Shown here in pieces: positions 139 to 9,942 of a stretch of DNA of 12,388 bases. The translations under genes were made by a program, and so were the position numbers. Positions within the stretch are counted from its first letter, which is position 1; each line of letters opens with the position of its first letter. Source of the stretch: Prevotella sp. GTDB taxonomy: Bacteria > Bacteroidota > Bacteroidia > Bacteroidales > Dysgonomonadaceae. The notes beneath the pieces were generated by a model. The model was given only the letters and a program-made list of their open reading frames with translations, searched no databases and was not told the DNA's origin. The DNA lies in the NCBI GenBank assembly GCA_031263965.1, contig JAISES010000318.1:1-12388 (forward strand). The letters run 5' to 3'.

Positions 139-286
139 GGATGTATCAAAAGTAAAACTACACTATCAAAGTGTTACCCTCTTTGTCATTCTGAATGCAA
201 TGAAGAATCCCGACTCTCCGGACACGGGATGTTTCACTCCGTTCAACATGACAAAAAGAAAGTGAAAATTACTTTTGACACACCCT
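139..286. repeat. MITE-like palindromic repeat, about 150 bp
   Basis: Bases 139-164 and 261-286 form an imperfect terminal inverted repeat with the shared core TCAAAAGTA/TACTTTTGA. A second nested pair lies inside: TTGTCATTCTGAA near 183-195 against TTCAACATGACAA near 242-254. A third is GAATCCCG against CGGGAT around 205-230. The whole unit could fold as one long hairpin. It has no coding capacity; the short ORFs that cross it follow the symmetry of the repeat. It resembles non-autonomous mobile repeats, but no matching transposase is in the window. Confidence 0.6.
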
Positions 287-1668: not shown

Positions 1669-4155
1669 ATGAAAACACATTATTTATTTTTGCTTATTGC
1701 TCTTTGGGCAATAAGTCTTACCTCCTGTCGGCAAAAAGATGACGTTGCAGAAGATGATTCCGACAACTCTACAGTGAGGATAATATTAAGTATCGGAAAA
1801 CAATATGTTACGGATAAATATTTTGAAGCGCCTGTAGATTCGGTTGGGGACCCCGAGTTGCGAACTATTTTGTCGGATAATAATATACAAGGATTGGTTG
1901 CTTTGTTTAAGAACAGGTACGACGGCGAAGGACTGTTGAAACCGGAAATAGATGACGACTCGAATGAACATTGGATCGTCATACATGCCGAAGGCAGGCA
2001 GAGGGCAGAATGTCTGGTAAACTCACTGGCTAAAGCCGGAGCAGTCTGGTCTGTTTACATTGAAGACTTGAAGCTGATATCTACTTCCCTAAACTCTTAT
2101 CCTTTTAATTTTATGGACCAGTGGCACTTGACAAGAATCGATGGTATAAATATAGCAGAAGCCTGGAATATAAACAAAGGGCGCAACGATGTTATTGTAG
2201 CCGTATGCGATGGCGGCGTAGACTATACCCATCCCAACCTCGACCCGGGCAACCGGAGCAGAGTTATACAGGGATATGATACCGGAGACAATGATAACAA
2301 CCCGATGGACGACCTGTCCAAAGGCGATTTTGCAGGGCATGGAACCCATATAGCAGGTATAATCGGCGCTAATCCGACAGCAAAAAATAATATTTCCGGC
2401 GTTATGCAAAATTGCAAGATAATGCCGGTGAAGATGGTCGGATCAGGCGGTATAAAAGTGCCTTTTACCAATAATTATATCTGGGATTTTTCAACAACCG
2501 CTTTTCCCGGTGATGTAGCCGATGCCATCGATTATGCCATCAACAATGGGGCACACATTATTAACTTAAGCTATGGCTTTGCCGTTCCGGATATTCCTTT
2601 GGCTGATATTCTTCTTAAGGTAGTCCCTCTCAGGCAGGCTATAGACAGGGCCTATTACGATAAGAATGTGGTTGTAGTAGCCTCTATGGGAAACGACGGG
2701 CCCAATAATACAAGGCCTTACTTTCCGGCCATGTACCATGGCGTAATTGCGGTGGGGAATACGGATAATCTCAAGAAAAGGTATCAAAGCTCCAGCGTAG
2801 GATCGCATATAAGCGTTTCAGCTCCCGGAACGAATATATTATCTACGGTAAGGGGGCCAAAAGACACTATCGGATATAAAACCGGCACTTCTATGGCTTC
2901 ACCTGTAGTGGCAGGATTGGCGGGTCTTATTATATCGCAAAGCAAAGACCGCAACCTGAATCTGACAAACGATGATGTGCGGAGGATAATGGAGCTTACT
3001 GCAGATGATGTATTATCTGAGTCTGGATTTGGATTTGGATTTGGATTTGACAGAGAAACAGGGCATGGTATAGTAAATGCATATAAGGCTTTGTCTTTAA
3101 TTAAAGAGCCGAACAGAGTTGTTCATGGTGAAATTAAGGGTGGAACTAGAACGAAGGTTCAAACAATTAGCAAATGGATACTTTCCGGAAGTTCTCCGTG
3201 GGTAGCAATTGCGGGAGGAGTATATCCAATTGTCGAACAATATGAGATGAAAGCGCATGTTACATTTCCTCAGGAATTTATAGTTCCCCCTACTGTTTGG
3301 ATGAGAAGCAAGGAAAGTGCATCTATGAGTTTCGCTAACCCAAATGATGGCTATCCTTTTGTAGAAATCACGAATGTAACGACCAAGGGTTTTGATGTGC
3401 GTTACGCTATTTATTTTGCCCAATATGATATGCAGGGACGATCCATAGCCAAATGGATACCATGGACAGAAGATAAAGTGAAAATAGCCTATACGGCAGT
3501 GGGTGTTCTGCCACCTACAATCGAAACGAGTCAGACAATGGCCTGTAATACTTATACGTTAAAGGACCTTATTCAAGGGACTACGATCAACTGGCAATCC
3601 ACTTCTACCATGACTCTCGTTTCCGGTCAAGGAACTCCAACGGCTACTTATCAGTCGTCAAGTAATAGTTATAATACAGTTAAGGCTACAATTACATATA
3701 ATGGAAACAGTTATACTGTGGAAAGTTCGCAAGTTTGGGTAGGAGCACCAGCTACTCCCGATATTCAAAATAGTTCGGAGTTGGATCCTGCCTATACGGC
3801 AAATACACTTTATAATTTTTCAGTCTCGAAGAACCTTGGAGATATCGTTAATTGGCGAGTTGAAGGGAATGCTCAGCTTATTGGTAAATCAGATGGAGAA
3901 TACTATTCATCTTTATCTATAAAGACCGGCAAATTATCGCTAAGGGACGAATATTCAATCTTCAGGATATATGCTACTTCTCAGAATAAGTGTGGGGCAT
4001 CACTTGAGGTAGAAAAAGAAATTTATTTCTATCCCATTGGTTCTGGAAGTATTCAAGTTAACTTGAAATCTGCTACCGTTGTTTCTGCCTCCACCTTCGC
4101 TCCTGTCACCGTCAAGGTGTACGTACAACTTCAATACGGGTACGCTGATGTATAG
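1669..4155 (+). CDS. S8 family (subtilisin-like) serine protease, exported, C-terminally frameshifted
   Basis: This 828-residue secreted peptidase has a signal peptide with lipobox LTSC (Cys20). Residues about 29-150 form a propeptide-like region. The subtilase domain spans about 165-475. The catalytic triad is complete: Asp181 in CDGGVD, His224 in GHGTH and Ser408 in GTSMASP, with oxyanion Asn342 in MGNDG. After the protease domain come roughly 340 residues of Ser/Thr-rich beta-sandwich-like sequence, suggesting Ig/PKD-type modules for substrate or surface binding. The frame ends at 4155 after ten residues that look unlike the family. The proper C-terminus continues in another frame at 4124-4279. 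Removing one copy of the GTAC duplication at 4119-4126 would give one 868-residue protein. The protease core is intact, so activity may persist, but localisation could be altered. It lies 9 bases behind the propeller lipoprotein gene. Confidence 0.9.
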   Translation: MKTHYLFLLIALWAISLTSCRQKDDVAEDDSDNSTVRIILSIGKQYVTDKYFEAPVDSVGDPELRTILSDNNIQGLVALFKNRYDGEGLLKPEIDDDSNEHWIVIHAEGRQRAECLVNSLAKAGAVWSVYIEDLKLISTSLNSYPFNFMDQWHLTRIDGINIAEAWNINKGRNDVIVAVCDGGVDYTHPNLDPGNRSRVIQGYDTGDNDNNPMDDLSKGDFAGHGTHIAGIIGANPTAKNNISGVMQNCKIMPVKMVGSGGIKVPFTNNYIWDFSTTAFPGDVADAIDYAINNGAHIINLSYGFAVPDIPLADILLKVVPLRQAIDRAYYDKNVVVVASMGNDGPNNTRPYFPAMYHGVIAVGNTDNLKKRYQSSSVGSHISVSAPGTNILSTVRGPKDTIGYKTGTSMASPVVAGLAGLIISQSKDRNLNLTNDDVRRIMELTADDVLSESGFGFGFGFDRETGHGIVNAYKALSLIKEPNRVVHGEIKGGTRTKVQTISKWILSGSSPWVAIAGGVYPIVEQYEMKAHVTFPQEFIVPPTVWMRSKESASMSFANPNDGYPFVEITNVTTKGFDVRYAIYFAQYDMQGRSIAKWIPWTEDKVKIAYTAVGVLPPTIETSQTMACNTYTLKDLIQGTTINWQSTSTMTLVSGQGTPTATYQSSSNSYNTVKATITYNGNSYTVESSQVWVGAPATPDIQNSSELDPAYTANTLYNFSVSKNLGDIVNWRVEGNAQLIGKSDGEYYSSLSIKTGKLSLRDEYSIFRIYATSQNKCGASLEVEKEIYFYPIGSGSIQVNLKSATVVSASTFAPVTVKVYVQLQYGYADV
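3025..3048 (+). repeat. In-frame GGATTT x4 microsatellite in the protease
   Basis: There are four perfect GGATTT hexamers encoding (Gly-Phe)4, residues 453-460 of the subtilase. They lie just before D-R-E-T-G-H-G-I-V-N-A, the conserved last helix region of S8 domains. Because the unit is six bases, gain or loss of copies keeps the frame and would only change loop length. Confidence 0.9.
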
Positions 4156-4374: not shown

Positions 4375-5067
4375 ATGATAAAACTTGAATTTGAGAACAT
4401 GTCGCTGGTTATTCCCGAAGGCTGGCACGAGGTAAAACTGGCTGATTATGAGAGGTGGAACACGCAGAAACCCGAAACCAAGCAGGAGTATGTCCGCTTT
4501 GTGGCCGATGTGTGCAATGTAGAAGCCAGTGTGCTGCTCGAAGCTCCGGCAAAGGTATTCGACATTATTACCGGGACTATCCGTTTCGTTTTCGACTCGG
4601 AGCCTGAACCGTCCAACAGGGTGAACATCGGCGGTAAAGACTATTTTGTATCCTTCTCGGACAAGCTGACTTTGGGCGAATGGGTAGATATTGAGAGCGT
4701 TATCGGCAGCGAAAGCACAGGCAAATTGTCCGAAATGCTCGCTATTCTGTGCCGTCCTGCCGGTGAAAAGTACAATTCCGACCTGGCCGGAGAACGACAA
4801 GCGATGTTTCGCAACCTGACCTGTGACAAGGTATTGCCGCTGATAGGTTTTTTTTTACTCAAAAAGAAAAGATCCGACGAGATTTTGAACCACTATTCAA
4901 CGGTGGCGGATCAGGCAAACCGGTTTCTAAGGGATACCGGGACTTTTGTAATAAATGGGGGTGGTATAAAACTATTGCCGATCTGGCAGAGGATAAGATA
5001 CATTTATTTGGTACGATCACTGAAAAAACAGTTGTCGAAGTTTTCGGATTCCTCCTTTACCGCATAG
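4375..5067 (+). CDS. Phage tail assembly chaperone-like protein, zero-frame product
   Basis: This 230-residue protein starts at ATG 4375. It begins with a beta-rich segment (I-K-L-E-F, V-I-P-E-G-W-H-E-V). It contains T-L-G-E-W-V-D-I-E near residues 99-107 and L-A-I-L-C-R-P-A near 122-129. I recognise this layout from proteins placed between tail tube and tape measure in Bacteroidota phages. The assignment rests on pattern memory, not a search. Such chaperones bind the tape-measure protein during tail assembly. The last ~70 residues of this frame, from about residue 161, look poor: they are rich in ATA, AGG, AGA, CGA and CTA codons and end with S-K-F-S-D-S-S-F-T-A. The other frame over the same bases looks better, so the zero-frame tail may be a short-form end or not native. 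No tape-measure gene follows; the next gene is on the opposite strand. Confidence 0.65.
   Translation: MIKLEFENMSLVIPEGWHEVKLADYERWNTQKPETKQEYVRFVADVCNVEASVLLEAPAKVFDIITGTIRFVFDSEPEPSNRVNIGGKDYFVSFSDKLTLGEWVDIESVIGSESTGKLSEMLAILCRPAGEKYNSDLAGERQAMFRNLTCDKVLPLIGFFLLKKKRSDEILNHYSTVADQANRFLRDTGTFVINGGGIKLLPIWQRIRYIYLVRSLKKQLSKFSDSSFTA
4848..4856 (+). promoter_or_regulatory. Candidate -1 slippery site, run of nine T
   Basis: Read in the zero frame the site is GGT TTT TTT TTA. Bases 4848-4854 are T-TTT-TTT in the X-XXY-YYZ register required for -1 slippage. The upstream limit for any switch is the TGA at 4824-4826 in the -1 frame, only 22 bases before the run, so the run is in the permitted window. 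I did not find a clear strong stem-loop or pseudoknot 5-9 bases downstream. The following bases are A-rich (CAAAAAGAAAAG). Confidence 0.5.
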
Positions 5068-5123
5068 ACAAGTCGCGGGCCGAAGAAGACCAGTACAAGT
5101 TTGAAAAACAGATACGGAGGTAA
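4848..5123 (+). CDS. -1 frame extension of the tail chaperone (gpT-like)
   Basis: The frame one base back is open from 4827 to the TAA at 5121-5123, overlapping the end of the zero frame. It encodes a well-formed protein segment with Y-R-D-F-C-N-K-W-G-W-Y-K-T-I-A-D-L, then E-K-T-V-V-E-V-F-G-F-L-L-Y-R-I-D-K and a charged end E-K-Q-I-R-R. No start codon suits a separate gene, so it is read as the C-terminal part of a fusion. A -1 step at the T-run gives 249 residues: about 160 zero-frame residues plus 89 from here. This matches the known G/G-T organisation of long-tailed phages, where a rare frameshift adds the tape-measure-binding T part. A one-base loss from a T10 run in an originally single frame gives the same picture. 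Confidence 0.6.
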   Translation, partial: FFFTQKEKIRRDFEPLFNGGGSGKPVSKGYRDFCNKWGWYKTIADLAEDKIHLFGTITEKTVVEVFGFLLYRIDKSRAEEDQYKFEKQIRR

Positions 5124-5208: not shown

Positions 5209-6393
5209 TTAATATTCCTCCCAAAACAGCTTGTCGTTGGTCGTAATATAATCGTTCCTTACAGGATCGGGCGTGTAACCCGCAGGATATAAATTGAGAT
5301 ACCCGCCGGTTGTTCCGGCTGTCTCTACATTATACCCGTTATGTAAAGGAGATGTCAGCCAGTAAAGGTTTTTAGCCATATACGAGTCCAGATAGTATTC
5401 CTTTGTCTGCTTGTTTTGATTGTTCCAGTTGGCATCTTCGTTCAGTACTAACGGCTTGTCGGCGCGCAGGCGTTCCCTTACTTCGGCTATACCGAGCAGG
5501 TTACCCTTTTCGTCGCTCACATAGGCGTTGAATGTAGGATCCATCCACAACCATTTGTTCAGCGTTTTGGAATATACGGCGTTGATAACATGGCAATCGA
5601 AAATATATTCTTTAGGCATGCAAGTGATAAACCTCGATTTGAAACCCATTGCCAGATAGCATTCGTTAAGCATTGTTGCCATCATACGGCAGTTTACTCC
5701 ACGGTTTTCGGCATCGCATACTTTCACTATATCGATTGCGTTTTTCGAAGACGGGTTAGTGGAACTTCCATCATGTCTGACGCGGTTGTGAACCCACGTC
5801 ATCAGGTTTTTTATCTGCGATATTTCATCACCCTTGCCTGCAATGCTGTCGAGGTTGAAGTATTGGCGGATACGTACCAGATTCGGGTCGGAAGCCTCGA
5901 GGTATGTGAACAGGATTTCTTCTTTGGGTAAGTCGTTGCTATAGCCGGATGCATCTTTTAACACTTCTGTAAAATCCCCGATCTTTTTCAGTTTCAGCAT
6001 CACGTCTTCGAATCGTTTTTCGTTCCGGATGTTATCCAGGTCGGAATCCTGAAGCGTATGCCCGTAGTCATTCCATTTGTACTCAAAGGCTTTTTCGAAG
6101 TTGTCCAGAGCTTTTTCTTTATTATTCAAAAGGCTGTAACTGCAAGCCTTATTATAATAAACCAAACCGAGGAAAGGAGAAATTGTTTCTTTGTCCTTAT
6201 CCGGCAGATGGTTGTAATAGCTGATTAACGAGTCGTACAGAACAATGGCTTTTTTATAATCCTTATCCCCTGCGGCAGAACTTGCGGCATTATATAGTTT
6301 TTGCAGATCAACCAGAGGTGTATTGCCGGAAGTTTGTGAAAATGCCAACAGGCTGAACAGTGAAATAATCAGAAGGCTAGCTATTTTTTTCAT
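5209..6393 (-). CDS. Secreted TPR / transglutaminase-like domain protein
   Basis: This is a 394-residue protein with a Sec signal peptide (M-K-K-I then hydrophobic residues to about 18, cleavage near L-A-F-S-Q) and no lipobox, so it is probably periplasmic or released. Residues about 30-135 are helical with TPR character: D-Y-K-K-A-I-V-L-Y-D-S-L, then Y-Y-N-K-A-C-S-Y-S-L and K-E-K-A-L-D-N-F-E-K-A-F. Residues about 195-290 are a transglutaminase-like cysteine-protease fold with the expected triad: Cys235 in G-V-N-C-R-M-M, His268 in D-C-H-V-I-N-A-V, and Asp285 in W-L-W-M-D-P-T-F. In bacteria this fold includes proteases, amidases and inactive binding versions; the specific substrate cannot be told. 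The C-terminal 100 residues carry aromatic-rich sequence with no recognised domain. It is convergent with the chaperone gene and preceded by a repeat cluster, so it appears to be a single-gene unit. Confidence 0.88.
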   Translation of the reverse strand: MKKIASLLIISLFSLLAFSQTSGNTPLVDLQKLYNAASSAAGDKDYKKAIVLYDSLISYYNHLPDKDKETISPFLGLVYYNKACSYSLLNNKEKALDNFEKAFEYKWNDYGHTLQDSDLDNIRNEKRFEDVMLKLKKIGDFTEVLKDASGYSNDLPKEEILFTYLEASDPNLVRIRQYFNLDSIAGKGDEISQIKNLMTWVHNRVRHDGSSTNPSSKNAIDIVKVCDAENRGVNCRMMATMLNECYLAMGFKSRFITCMPKEYIFDCHVINAVYSKTLNKWLWMDPTFNAYVSDEKGNLLGIAEVRERLRADKPLVLNEDANWNNQNKQTKEYYLDSYMAKNLYWLTSPLHNGYNVETAGTTGGYLNLYPAGYTPDPVRNDYITTNDKLFWEEY

Positions 6394-7070: not shown

Positions 7071-7619
7071 ATGATAAACAGTATAATCAACATTTTTCAC
7101 ACACAGGCACAACAGCACAAATCGCTGAAAGCCTTTTACTACGGGCGTAACTACGAACTCGGCAGCGGCAAAGACCTTTATCCTCTCTTGTGGCTCGAAG
7201 ACCCTTTGACAGGATACAGCCGCGGCAATGTATTCTCCAATTCGGTTAATTTTTCTATTCTTCTTTTACCCGACAAGGAACACACGGTTGCAGAGGTGCA
7301 GAGCCTTGCTTTCTCCATTGGGCTGAATATCATCGAGCGGATAAAGAAACAAGGCGACGAACTGGGCGTCAGCATACAGCCCGACTGGAGCTACCTGACG
7401 CTGAGCAATTACTACGACGACAATGCCTGCGGATGCCGTTTTACCGTCAATTTTACGCAAGCCAACATGCAAAATCTGTGCCTGATAGACGAACAATTCG
7501 ACAACGGCAAGCAGTTTGAAGTGGCAAACCTATTGAAAAGCTTCGATGTTTCTCCTGCCAACACCTGCGAAGTGTTTACGGATAAATTTCCTGTATTTGA
7601 TCTAAAAACAAGAAGATGA
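7071..7619 (+). CDS. Phage tail-completion-like protein (tail terminator position)
   Basis: This 182-residue protein resembles a family seen next to gp10-like genes in Bacteroidota phages and prophages. The visible pattern is D-L-Y-P-L-L-W-L near residues 35-42, V-N-F-S-I-L-L-L-P-D at 59-68, a helix with S-I-G-L-N-I-I-E-R-I at 82-91, then N-Y-Y-D-D-N-A-C-G-C-R-F-T-V-N-F at 113-128 and a central Cys137. In family members the corresponding parts are a short beta-alpha-beta fold thought to cap the tail tube. No signal peptide or membrane segment is present, so it is cytoplasmic. Its stop overlaps the next start (ATGA at 7616-7619), indicating translational coupling. The start at 7071 has no Shine-Dalgarno. 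The role is inferred from pattern memory and neighbours; the phage-like origin is firmer than the exact part. Confidence 0.6.
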   Translation: MINSIINIFHTQAQQHKSLKAFYYGRNYELGSGKDLYPLLWLEDPLTGYSRGNVFSNSVNFSILLLPDKEHTVAEVQSLAFSIGLNIIERIKKQGDELGVSIQPDWSYLTLSNYYDDNACGCRFTVNFTQANMQNLCLIDEQFDNGKQFEVANLLKSFDVSPANTCEVFTDKFPVFDLKTRR

Positions 7620-8089
7620 ATAATCATGTGTTAAAAGTAGTCGAAGAAATAAGCCGCGACATTGTGGCTTTGGCTCAGTTTGTCCTCGATAACGACAGTA
7701 TCGGGGTAAACAGGAAAACGGGAAGAAACACTCTGAAGGACAGCATCATGATAAAAGATGCGGATTCCCGTATCAGCTTTGGCAGCAATGGAGATAATGC
7801 GGTGATAGAGATTTTGTTCAACAACTATATCGACTACATCGAAAAAGGCCGTTCTCCGGGCAAGATGCCGCCCATCAGCGCACTGAAAGAGTGGGCGCAG
7901 TCGCGCGGCATTTCCACCGGCAACAGTACGCTTTTTGCCATAGCCAACGCCATCAAGCGCGACGGCATCGAAGGACGTCCCATATTGGCAACTCTCGAAC
8001 GGGAAATAGAAATCAGCTTCGAAAACGAATGGTACGACAAGCTATTCGAAGCAATGACCTCAGAGTTAAATAAATACTTCGACAACTGA
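7616..8089 (+). CDS. Phage HK97 gp10-like neck / head-tail joining protein
   Basis: This is a 157-residue protein with the hallmark middle of gp10-like phage proteins: Y-I-D-Y-I-E-K-G-R-S-P-G-K-M-P-P at residues 71-86, L-K-E-W-A-Q-S-R-G-I at 90-99, then F-A-I-A-N-A-I-K-R-D-G-I-E-G-R-P at 107-122. In known phages this protein sits at the connector between head and tail and the gene is beside the tail-terminator gene, exactly as here. It overlaps the upstream gene by four bases and should be cotranslated with it. The reading frame is intact and the length usual. The stop codon TGA overlaps the first base of the heptamer array that follows. Of the phage-type genes in the window this is the most confident call. 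Confidence 0.75.
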   Translation: MNNHVLKVVEEISRDIVALAQFVLDNDSIGVNRKTGRNTLKDSIMIKDADSRISFGSNGDNAVIEILFNNYIDYIEKGRSPGKMPPISALKEWAQSRGISTGNSTLFAIANAIKRDGIEGRPILATLEREIEISFENEWYDKLFEAMTSELNKYFDN

Positions 8090-8220: not shown

Positions 8221-9942
8221 ATGGGATATTTTATAAAAGAACTTAAAGATATAGCCAGGGTAACCGAACCTTCCAAATTTTCCTTGTCTTCTAATCCGAA
8301 TTTTGTACAATTCGAAAGTAAGGTTACAGGAGGTAAGCCCGTCGAAATAACCATTGAGGTTATAGGAAACGGATTAGTTTGCATAGCTGAAGGCTCTGGT
8401 GGTCCTCTGGACCCTATTAAATGCATGTATTTAATAAAGTTTACAATAACGGAAAGCAGGACAAAAACACCTCATGTCTTTGGAGGCACTTATAAAATTG
8501 ATAACATAGGGGGAGGTACTTTTTATATGGGTAACTCGGCAGTACAGGACTTGATCCTGATAGCCGAGAATCTGAAAAATTGCCTGCAAGCCAACGATTT
8601 CATGGGCAGGAATTTTGACATAAGTATTCCTCTGGTACGTAACGATGATGGAACATTAGAGAAAGGGACAACAATAAAAATCACGGCCAAAGGTAATGGC
8701 GAGGATTATGCCTTTAGCCTTACCCCTGATGTAGAAGATAGTTACAAAGATTTATTTTATGAACATTTCATAAAAGTTACAGGAGAGTCGGAGAATGTTG
8801 CATCCAACGACTCTTTCTCCGAAGGCCACAGCCCCGTGGAATTACATTTGGAACTGTACAAAAACACAGGCGTATTTCCCGGAACGGACAGTACGCCCGA
8901 CGACCGGAATACAGGCTCGCTTGTGACCACTCTCACCAAGTCTTATGCGAATAACCCTCTTTGGTTTAACGTAAATATATTGGAGAGTAAAGATTATTCG
9001 CGCGATTTTCTGAAAGACGAAAACCTGTGGTTTGATACGGGTACAGTCCGTGATTTCAGGTTTGCAGCCAAAAGGCTGGTATCAGCTAAAAATCATTACG
9101 AAAATTCGCTCTTTTACTATTCTGATGTATTATACCTCGTCAACGGCTACCAACGCAATCTTGATACGAACGACCTGTCGGCGTATGTTTACGATACCTC
9201 GGAGGCGACGAAAGCAAAACCGTTGACTACCCAGCCCCAACTGTTTCACATCAAAGGGCAGGCGCAGTATTTCAACTTCCTGCTTTCCGATGCCGGCCAC
9301 AACGACGAACAGGGTGGGAATCTGGGTATAACATACCGGATATTCAGCCAGTCGGGACGCTTCCTTGCCGAAAAGGTGATGCACGCCATGCCTAAGCACG
9401 GGTTTCATGCGGTCAATACTATTCGTTTAGACATCGACGGGGCGATAGAGGAATATCCCACTGCCGGACGGGTGGAAGCCTGTTTGTCGCGCTCGCTGCC
9501 CGGTAAGGACAATTACATTGCAGTGACCGAGCCGTTGCGGTTCAGGATACTGCCTTCGTGCCTGTACAAGGTCAACGACTTTGCGTTCCTCAATTCGCTG
9601 GGAGGGTGGAGCAGCTTTAACTTTGCCGGAACAGACCAGTCGGAATTTAAGACAAAGACGAATACCTTCTTCAAAACGCACACGCCCGACAAGACCATCA
9701 GCAGCGAGTTGGAAGCCGTTTACAGTAAAGATGCGGAAGAGCAGTTCTCGGTGCAAACAATGCCCATTACCCGCGATGTGGCCGGATGGCTGCGCGAACT
9801 GAGCGCCTCGAAAGCCGTGTACGAATTATCCACGAAGAGGTATGTCATTGTTGATGACCTGACGATAAAACCCAATTCGAAGGACGATCTTTTCCGCCTC
9901 GAAATGAAGTACCGGTATTCCGATATTTACAACGCAAAGTAA
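8221..9942 (+). CDS. Large phage tail-associated structural protein (putative)
   Basis: This is a 573-residue protein without signal peptide or membrane segment. It is beta-rich. The N-terminal module has S-S-N-P-N-F-V-Q-F-E-S (residues 23-33), then a F-T-I-T-E / G-G-T-Y-K-I-D pattern. A related strand pattern N-N-P-L-W-F-N-V-N occurs at about 243-251. The C-terminal part has W-L-R-E-L near 523, Y-V-I-V-D-D near 541 and ends L-E-M-K-Y-R-Y-S-D. I recognise the N-P-N-F-V-x-F-E start and the V-I-V-D-D-x-x-I-K-P end as features of large baseplate or distal-tail proteins in Bacteroidota phages, but cannot name the part. It follows the neck genes by 131 bases of repeats in the same direction. Base composition changes along it: sampled 60-base rows near the start are about 32-42 percent G+C, those near 9241-9600 are 50-58 percent, which suggests a mosaic gene. 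Confidence 0.6.
   Translation: MGYFIKELKDIARVTEPSKFSLSSNPNFVQFESKVTGGKPVEITIEVIGNGLVCIAEGSGGPLDPIKCMYLIKFTITESRTKTPHVFGGTYKIDNIGGGTFYMGNSAVQDLILIAENLKNCLQANDFMGRNFDISIPLVRNDDGTLEKGTTIKITAKGNGEDYAFSLTPDVEDSYKDLFYEHFIKVTGESENVASNDSFSEGHSPVELHLELYKNTGVFPGTDSTPDDRNTGSLVTTLTKSYANNPLWFNVNILESKDYSRDFLKDENLWFDTGTVRDFRFAAKRLVSAKNHYENSLFYYSDVLYLVNGYQRNLDTNDLSAYVYDTSEATKAKPLTTQPQLFHIKGQAQYFNFLLSDAGHNDEQGGNLGITYRIFSQSGRFLAEKVMHAMPKHGFHAVNTIRLDIDGAIEEYPTAGRVEACLSRSLPGKDNYIAVTEPLRFRILPSCLYKVNDFAFLNSLGGWSSFNFAGTDQSEFKTKTNTFFKTHTPDKTISSELEAVYSKDAEEQFSVQTMPITRDVAGWLRELSASKAVYELSTKRYVIVDDLTIKPNSKDDLFRLEMKYRYSDIYNAK

Follow-up and report, generated by a model that had tools for sequence, protein, structure and literature searches.

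Two overlapping reading frames around a conserved run of nine Ts in a tail-chaperone-like gene of Dysgonomonas and Bacteroidota phages

Tail chaperones made by ribosomal frameshifting are a textbook example of recoding, and the main survey of tail frameshifts is reportedly that of Xu et al. in 2004. Among runs of a single base, that of Shigella mxiE is exactly nine long. The lambda system supplies many copies of gpG and few of gpGT, which bind the tape measure and the tail tube (Atkins et al. 2016, PMC5009743; this and the other papers are cited here from excerpts). The excerpted reference on mxiE writes of Tn with n over 8 (PMC3711429). Baranov et al. (2005) see a case for purposeful slippage in transcription where homologues keep a run of nine As or Ts at the same length and the shifted frame is conserved as well; slippage-prone runs are, they report, under-represented, possibly on account of replication slippage too (PMC1088944). 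Here we describe a tail-chaperone-like gene in which two frames overlap around a run of nine Ts (T9). It lies in a stretch of 12,388 nucleotides from Prevotella sp. (contig JAISES010000318.1, assembly GCA_031263965.1), called the window below, and has relatives in Dysgonomonas genomes and in phages. On the whole we consider it probable that RNA polymerase slips at T9 and that the gene would so yield tail-chaperone-like products of 230 and 249 amino acids (aa).

The gene and its relatives

The zero frame spans 4375-5067 on the forward strand and encodes a tail-assembly-chaperone-like protein of 230 aa, which is conserved over its full length in relatives and is modelled by AlphaFold2 with a mean predicted local distance difference test (pLDDT) score of 83. 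The T9 run, the putative slippage site, occupies 4848..4856 on the same strand and is read in the zero frame as GGT TTT TTT TTA. An open stretch in the -1 frame (4827..5123, forward strand) is bounded by a TGA at 4824-4826 and a TAA at 5121-5123, and past the run it encodes a conserved T-like domain (KWGWYKTIADLAEDKI...). A shift of one base at T9 gives, as computed from the sequence, a fusion of 249 aa. The two frames, the run between them and the fusion are confirmed at the coordinates that the initial annotation had given, as is its T_TTT_TTT heptamer of the X_XXY_YYZ form, which is in register for a -1 slip at 4848-4854. Both frames are read through 4857..5064 (forward strand), a dual-coded stretch of about 69 codons.

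The gene was found at 24 places, its own included, in 22 of 61 genomes, and all the matches cover most of residues 1-230. Further loci of this first clade came from genome contigs (29) and from virus contigs (1, 31, 15 and 25, many of them identical). The clade holds 64 distinct genes with the run, counting that of the window; 62 combine T9 with a -1 domain, and two, L075 and L096, have T10 and a single uninterrupted frame and are natural fusions. The -1 domain of the 62 is of WGWY type, the motif being W-G-[LF]-Y or W-T-W-Y in three. Query A2 matched only its own genome among 395 genomes of the phylum, and query A3 matched six of 393 genomes of the order. In a phage collection, tblastn of three divergent relatives found nothing at 1e-3 and a -1 domain had no match below E 3; the window protein, searched with an E limit of 10, matched only phages P12024S and P12024L (E 5e-3 to 6e-3).

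A structure search of viral models led to Nonlabens phage P12024S, in which the matching protein has 175 aa. This phage (35.7 kb) has its sole gene-strand T9 at 23578, within P12024S_38, the gene of this protein, and the -1 frame domain there contains LKWSWYHTF. The region (L145:23136-23830) is annotated as two hypothetical genes, of which P12024S_39 covers just the final 55 codons of the -1 domain that lies beyond the T9 of P12024S_38; the record links no frameshift to them. Relatives of P12024S were found at 63 virus-contig loci (64 with P12024S), which reduce to 45 distinct genes. T9 is present in 44 of this second clade, and L158 has T10 yet still has two frames. The -1 domain is found in 43 of the 45, the contigs of L184 and L198 ending ahead of it. 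The zero-frame tail is 54-83 codons long in 38 of the 45 (one of them cut by its contig), 15-24 in four (P12024S and its kin), and below 50 in three genes where the contig end cuts it. With duplicates removed, the two clades together hold 107 distinct two-frame genes, the window's included (62 and 45).

Conservation of the run and of both frames

The run is exactly nine Ts long in 106 of the 107 two-frame genes and ten in one, and among the 109 genes with a run there is no T8 and three have T10 (L075, L096 and L158). The initial annotation had proposed a tail-chaperone-like gene with a programmed change of frame at its T9, to be checked by whether homologues keep two frames with a slippery run or one continuous frame, and the 106 genes that keep both support it. 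The T9 genes, clustered on their own (n=125, second-clade duplicates kept), fall into 28 groups when 50% identity is required and into 6 when 30% is, so the agreement on nine is not due to close copies alone. On this comparison of sequences the T9 frameshift site is real and widely conserved, more than by chance.

The initial annotation had weighed a rival, that one T had been lost from a T10 gene in this assembly through mutation or base-calling. The window is an entire contig of an assembly of 527 contigs that is 82.67% complete and 5.8% contaminated, which lends the idea some support, but relatives in other assemblies, in isolates and in virus contigs, 105 distinct genes besides that of the window, show the same T9 and two frames, and we regard such a loss as refuted. 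Assembly error or chance mutation at T9 is excluded by conservation in independent assemblies.

Another rival is phase variation, in which replication slippage would shift the DNA run between T9 and T10 and so switch the fusion on or off between cells. The natural fusions L075 and L096 speak for it, as does the presence in one genome of two lengths: in Dysgonomonas sp. 520, L075 (T10) is a second copy beside L073 (T9), and 138 of 160 residues before the run are identical. Because of this pair we rate phase variation a shade higher than we otherwise would, though still as very improbable. The scarcity of lengths other than nine, with L158 still in two frames, indicates that the run does not vary freely; the near-identical pairs L007/L008 and L082/L083 are T9 throughout, and in genes with T9 each of the two frames is conserved. 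With run length nearly fixed among the 109 genes, phase variation was rejected.

The nine Ts are found in two codon phases. In 55 genes the run starts at codon position 3, with GCT (37), AGT (10), GGT (5), AAT, TCT or TGT (1 each) as first codon, and ends in TTA (19) or TTG (36), that is, in TTR in 55 of 55. In 51 genes it starts at codon position 2, with GTT (39), CTT (10) or ATT (2), and ends in TAY (46) or TCN (5). An extra T at one end of the run is paired with a missing T at the other. TTT makes up 59% of the Phe codons and TTR 52% of the Leu codons of the same genes, so the use of TTT and TTR in every case is not a matter of codon bias alone.

Runs of this length are scarce elsewhere. 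The 616 kb of 73 phage loci contain 83 gene-strand runs of at least nine Ts, about one per locus at the chaperone site and about 10 in other places. In 270 other open reading frames (ORFs), taken from the window and from 20 loci (L027-L046) of Dysgonomonas and two family relatives with at most 20 kb each, no run of at least nine Ts was found against 4.6 expected from synonymous shuffles, and two runs of at least nine As against 24.7, a depletion of about twelvefold. The corresponding figures for 106 ORFs of phage loci (T, 0 against 0.33; A, 2 against 2.46) are uninformative on depletion.

According to the initial annotation the zero frame was good only to about residue 160, and the two frames were coding one after the other. 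Neither statement holds: beyond the run, 50 of the 62 first-clade genes have a zero frame that is open for another 65-85 codons (24-51 in the other 12) and is conserved there, and some 69 codons of the window are coded in both frames. When synonymous codons of the -1 frame were drawn at random, the chance of the zero frame staying open had a median of 0.027 per gene in those 50 genes (range 0 to 0.114) and was 0.054 for the window. Third positions differ in 61.6% of codons upstream and 27.4% in the overlap among 24 Dysgonomonas-type genes (276 pairs), and in 60.7% and 45.6%, respectively, among 12 Bacteroides-type genes (66 pairs); these overlap statistics cover the first clade only.

Similarity of the zero-frame tail exceeds that of resampled sequences in five of five pair groups. 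Between Dysgonomonas-type and Bacteroides-type genes the BLOSUM62 score per site is 0.88 against 0.19 resampled, and in the weakest group 0.33 against 0.03. The excess is 0.30 to 1.57 in the overlap and -0.20 to 0.44 for unused upstream frames taken as control, a comparison made despite a difference in scoring, since resampling of the overlap avoided zero-frame stops and scored stops -4, whereas the control scored them 0. The weakest overlap group has an excess of 0.30 and controls of -0.07 to -0.20. AlphaFold2 predicts two helices in the zero-frame tail of the window (150-193 and 203-225), the block having a pLDDT of 69-92 that falls to 51 in the last ten residues. Judged by resampling, the zero-frame tail is conserved beyond the constraint of the -1 frame, and about 69 codons of the window are coded twice. 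It seems likely that T9 selects between two C-termini, which would end the protein at 230 or 249 aa.

Slippage by the polymerase or by the ribosome

An extra U in the message and a -1 step of the ribosome give the identical protein. The initial annotation took the slippage to be ribosomal, which is only one of these two options, and a fixed length in two codon phases better fits RNA polymerase. Its remark that no obvious stem lies downstream was right: there are 0 conserved pairs in 39 sequences, and the sequence downstream of the run folds about as the rest of the gene does, with z below -2 in 5 of 62 genes and, for the control, in 3 of 62. We favour polymerase slippage because nine Ts are kept across codon phases, because conserved RNA structure is lacking, and because T9 and A9 are depleted in neighbouring ORFs. 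Both of the grounds given in the excerpt of Baranov et al. hold in the T9 family and support transcriptional slippage (PMC1088944): the run of nine and the shifted-frame extension are both conserved, and such runs are under-represented in the ORFs of host loci. All this makes slippage during transcription, rather than on the ribosome, the probable mechanism.

RNA polymerase would add one U at T9 in a fraction of transcripts, turning U9 into U10; U9 messages would be translated into the 230-aa protein and U10 messages into the 249-aa protein. By analogy with lambda the two products would act like gpG and gpGT: their common N-terminal portion would bind the tape measure, and the tail-tube subunit would be recruited by the -1 domain. 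The zero-frame tail, a helical pair in the predicted model, may be a working alternative C-terminus.

Several points weigh against this account. The heptamer T_TTT_TTT has the right register in the window and, judged from run phase, in both classes, as programmed -1 ribosomal frameshifting would have it, and phage P2 makes a -1 shift on TTTTTTG in the same kind of gene with no downstream hairpin (PMC3091744, in excerpt). The codon-phase changes represent few events, and the residues flanking the run are conserved themselves. Five further relatives are without the two-frame arrangement and were kept apart from the 107. L116 has a single frame and no run; L144, a weak match from the order search, has a single frame and no T run of at least seven on the gene strand of its locus. 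In Flavobacterium phage 6H (L146:10352-10927), a structural relative, there is no T9 at the site and the -1 frame stops at once, which counts against the T9 switch as a universal device; behind the stop the -1 frame holds a likely C-terminal domain, so this phage has another way of making it, or none.

On the ribosomal alternative, tRNA-Phe (and tRNA-Leu) would slip back on U_UUU_UUU or U_UUU_UUR and give the same 230- and 249-aa products. T_TTT_TTR is available in addition in the phase-2 genes, whose run ends in TTR, and tail-chaperone cases are described as ribosomal in the excerpt of PMC5009743. Such a mechanism would not on its own demand nine Ts in each phase, nor TTR in 55 of 55, and there is no conserved stimulator, although a stimulatory structure is not present in every phage case. 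We hold it to be a possible but distinctly less probable explanation than slippage of the polymerase.

Phage context and probable tail-chaperone identity

The frame layout of the 107 genes suggests a plan of G/GT type, in which two products would share an N-terminus through a -1 shift. The gene could instead have a real frame switch and encode another phage structural or assembly protein. Pfam has no match for the window's frames, and PHROG gives weak matches of unknown function for them and none for those of the phage-like contig L118. Foldseek found no match for the zero-frame model in the PDB at 1e-3. Of the solved chains, that of the HK97 tail assembly chaperone (2ob9) scores best against either model, with a weak Z. 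Alignment A5 misplaces its zero-frame rows over the last 25 or so residues, and the L096 model rests there on fewer rows. That the HK97 chaperone comes top for both models, and that an N-terminal protein with a helical -1 extension lies within a phage structural module, make a protein other than a tail chaperone unlikely.

In L118 and L210 the gene order is chaperone, F1, F3, F2, an 863-aa gene and a 1021-aa tape-measure-like gene. The window has companion phage genes at 7071..7619 (F1, 182 aa, whose homologue directly follows the chaperone in L118), 7616..8089 (F3, 157 aa, with a PHROG match of unknown function at E 1.6e-4) and 8221..9942 (F2, 573 aa), all on the forward strand. Beside and between the phage genes of the window are a PD40 beta-propeller protein (802-1659, forward), a subtilase of family S8 with a weak H-lectin match (1669-4155, forward) and a protein that combines a transglutaminase core with TPR-like stretches (5209-6393, reverse).

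The initial annotation placed the gene in a Bacteroidota phage lineage; it belongs not to an ordinary phage but to a dispersed, genus-wide set of phage-derived genes in the bacterial chromosome. Among 25 Dysgonomonas genomes (G000-G024) the chaperone was found in 20, the portal in 22, the terminase in 23, a tape-measure-like gene in 22 and a head-like gene in 18; in the 18 good genomes each was found in 17, except the head-like gene (15). Portal and terminase are mostly single-copy per Dysgonomonas genome, and in the loci fetched DUF6712 and F1-F3-F2 are in the set too. The genes are often far apart or on separate contigs, with unrelated genes between them, some for secreted peptidases; in G003, a single contig, the terminase is at 4.54 Mb and the remaining phage genes are at 4.97-5.02 Mb. 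Stop codons within the aligned stretch of 8 of 19 head-like matches and of one portal match argue against full intactness. The dispersed Dysgonomonas set looks like a domesticated phage, and it may be a candidate gene-transfer-agent-like system; no report of such a system in Dysgonomonas was found among the matches listed. Several Prevotella sp. records of this group are placed in the same genus as the Dysgonomonas genomes and are probably misnamed.

Comparison with known systems

We lean slightly towards a wider proposal, that tailed phages of Bacteroidota and the domesticated phage of Dysgonomonas set the ratio of two chaperones by RNA polymerase slippage on T9, with overlapping C-terminal domains, and that this would be the first family of phage tail genes known to slip in transcription and not on the ribosome. 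Among the matches listed from the open-licence literature, in excerpt, no report of transcriptional slippage in a tail chaperone or of the T9 family was found (PMC5009743, PMC3711429, PMC10885494, PMC2853527, PMC8008677, PMC3091744). If the proposal is true, the product ratio can be set at transcription too, with the two-product plan kept and about 70 codons dual-coded. The results correct the reading of P12024S_38 and P12024S_39, annotated as separate hypotheticals, and the T9 family offers a marker for unrecognised Bacteroidota phages.

The closest described systems share some of these features and differ in others. As in Thermus dnaX (A9), insertion sequence (IS) elements with A9 and Shigella mxiE, a homopolymer of conserved length goes with a conserved shifted frame (PMC1088944, PMC3711429, in excerpt); unlike these, the genes here are phage tail genes and the slippage is predicted from sequence. 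Polymerase slippage also yields a type VI secretion protein in two lengths from tssM of Citrobacter rodentium, where, according to the excerpted text, it rescues one interrupted gene, whereas the T9 run appears to be a family-wide device (PMC4256274). In E/E+E' of phage P2, likewise, a tail gene slips on a T-rich site that has no hairpin downstream of it (PMC3091744, in excerpt), but P2 has six Ts and a G, whereas the T9 family has nine Ts, placed in either of two codon phases, and TTTTTTG is absent from one of these phases. As in lambda gpG/gpGT and systems of HK97 type, one gene would make two proteins that are identical at the N-terminus, one of them extended by what the -1 frame encodes (PMC5009743, in excerpt), and 2ob9 of the HK97 type is the best solved match, a weak one. 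Unlike in lambda and HK97-type phages, the slip site is T9, a long conserved zero-frame tail overlaps the -1 domain, no sequence match was found, and the chaperone stands at the head of the F1-F3-F2-863-aa-1021-aa order and not directly before the tape measure.
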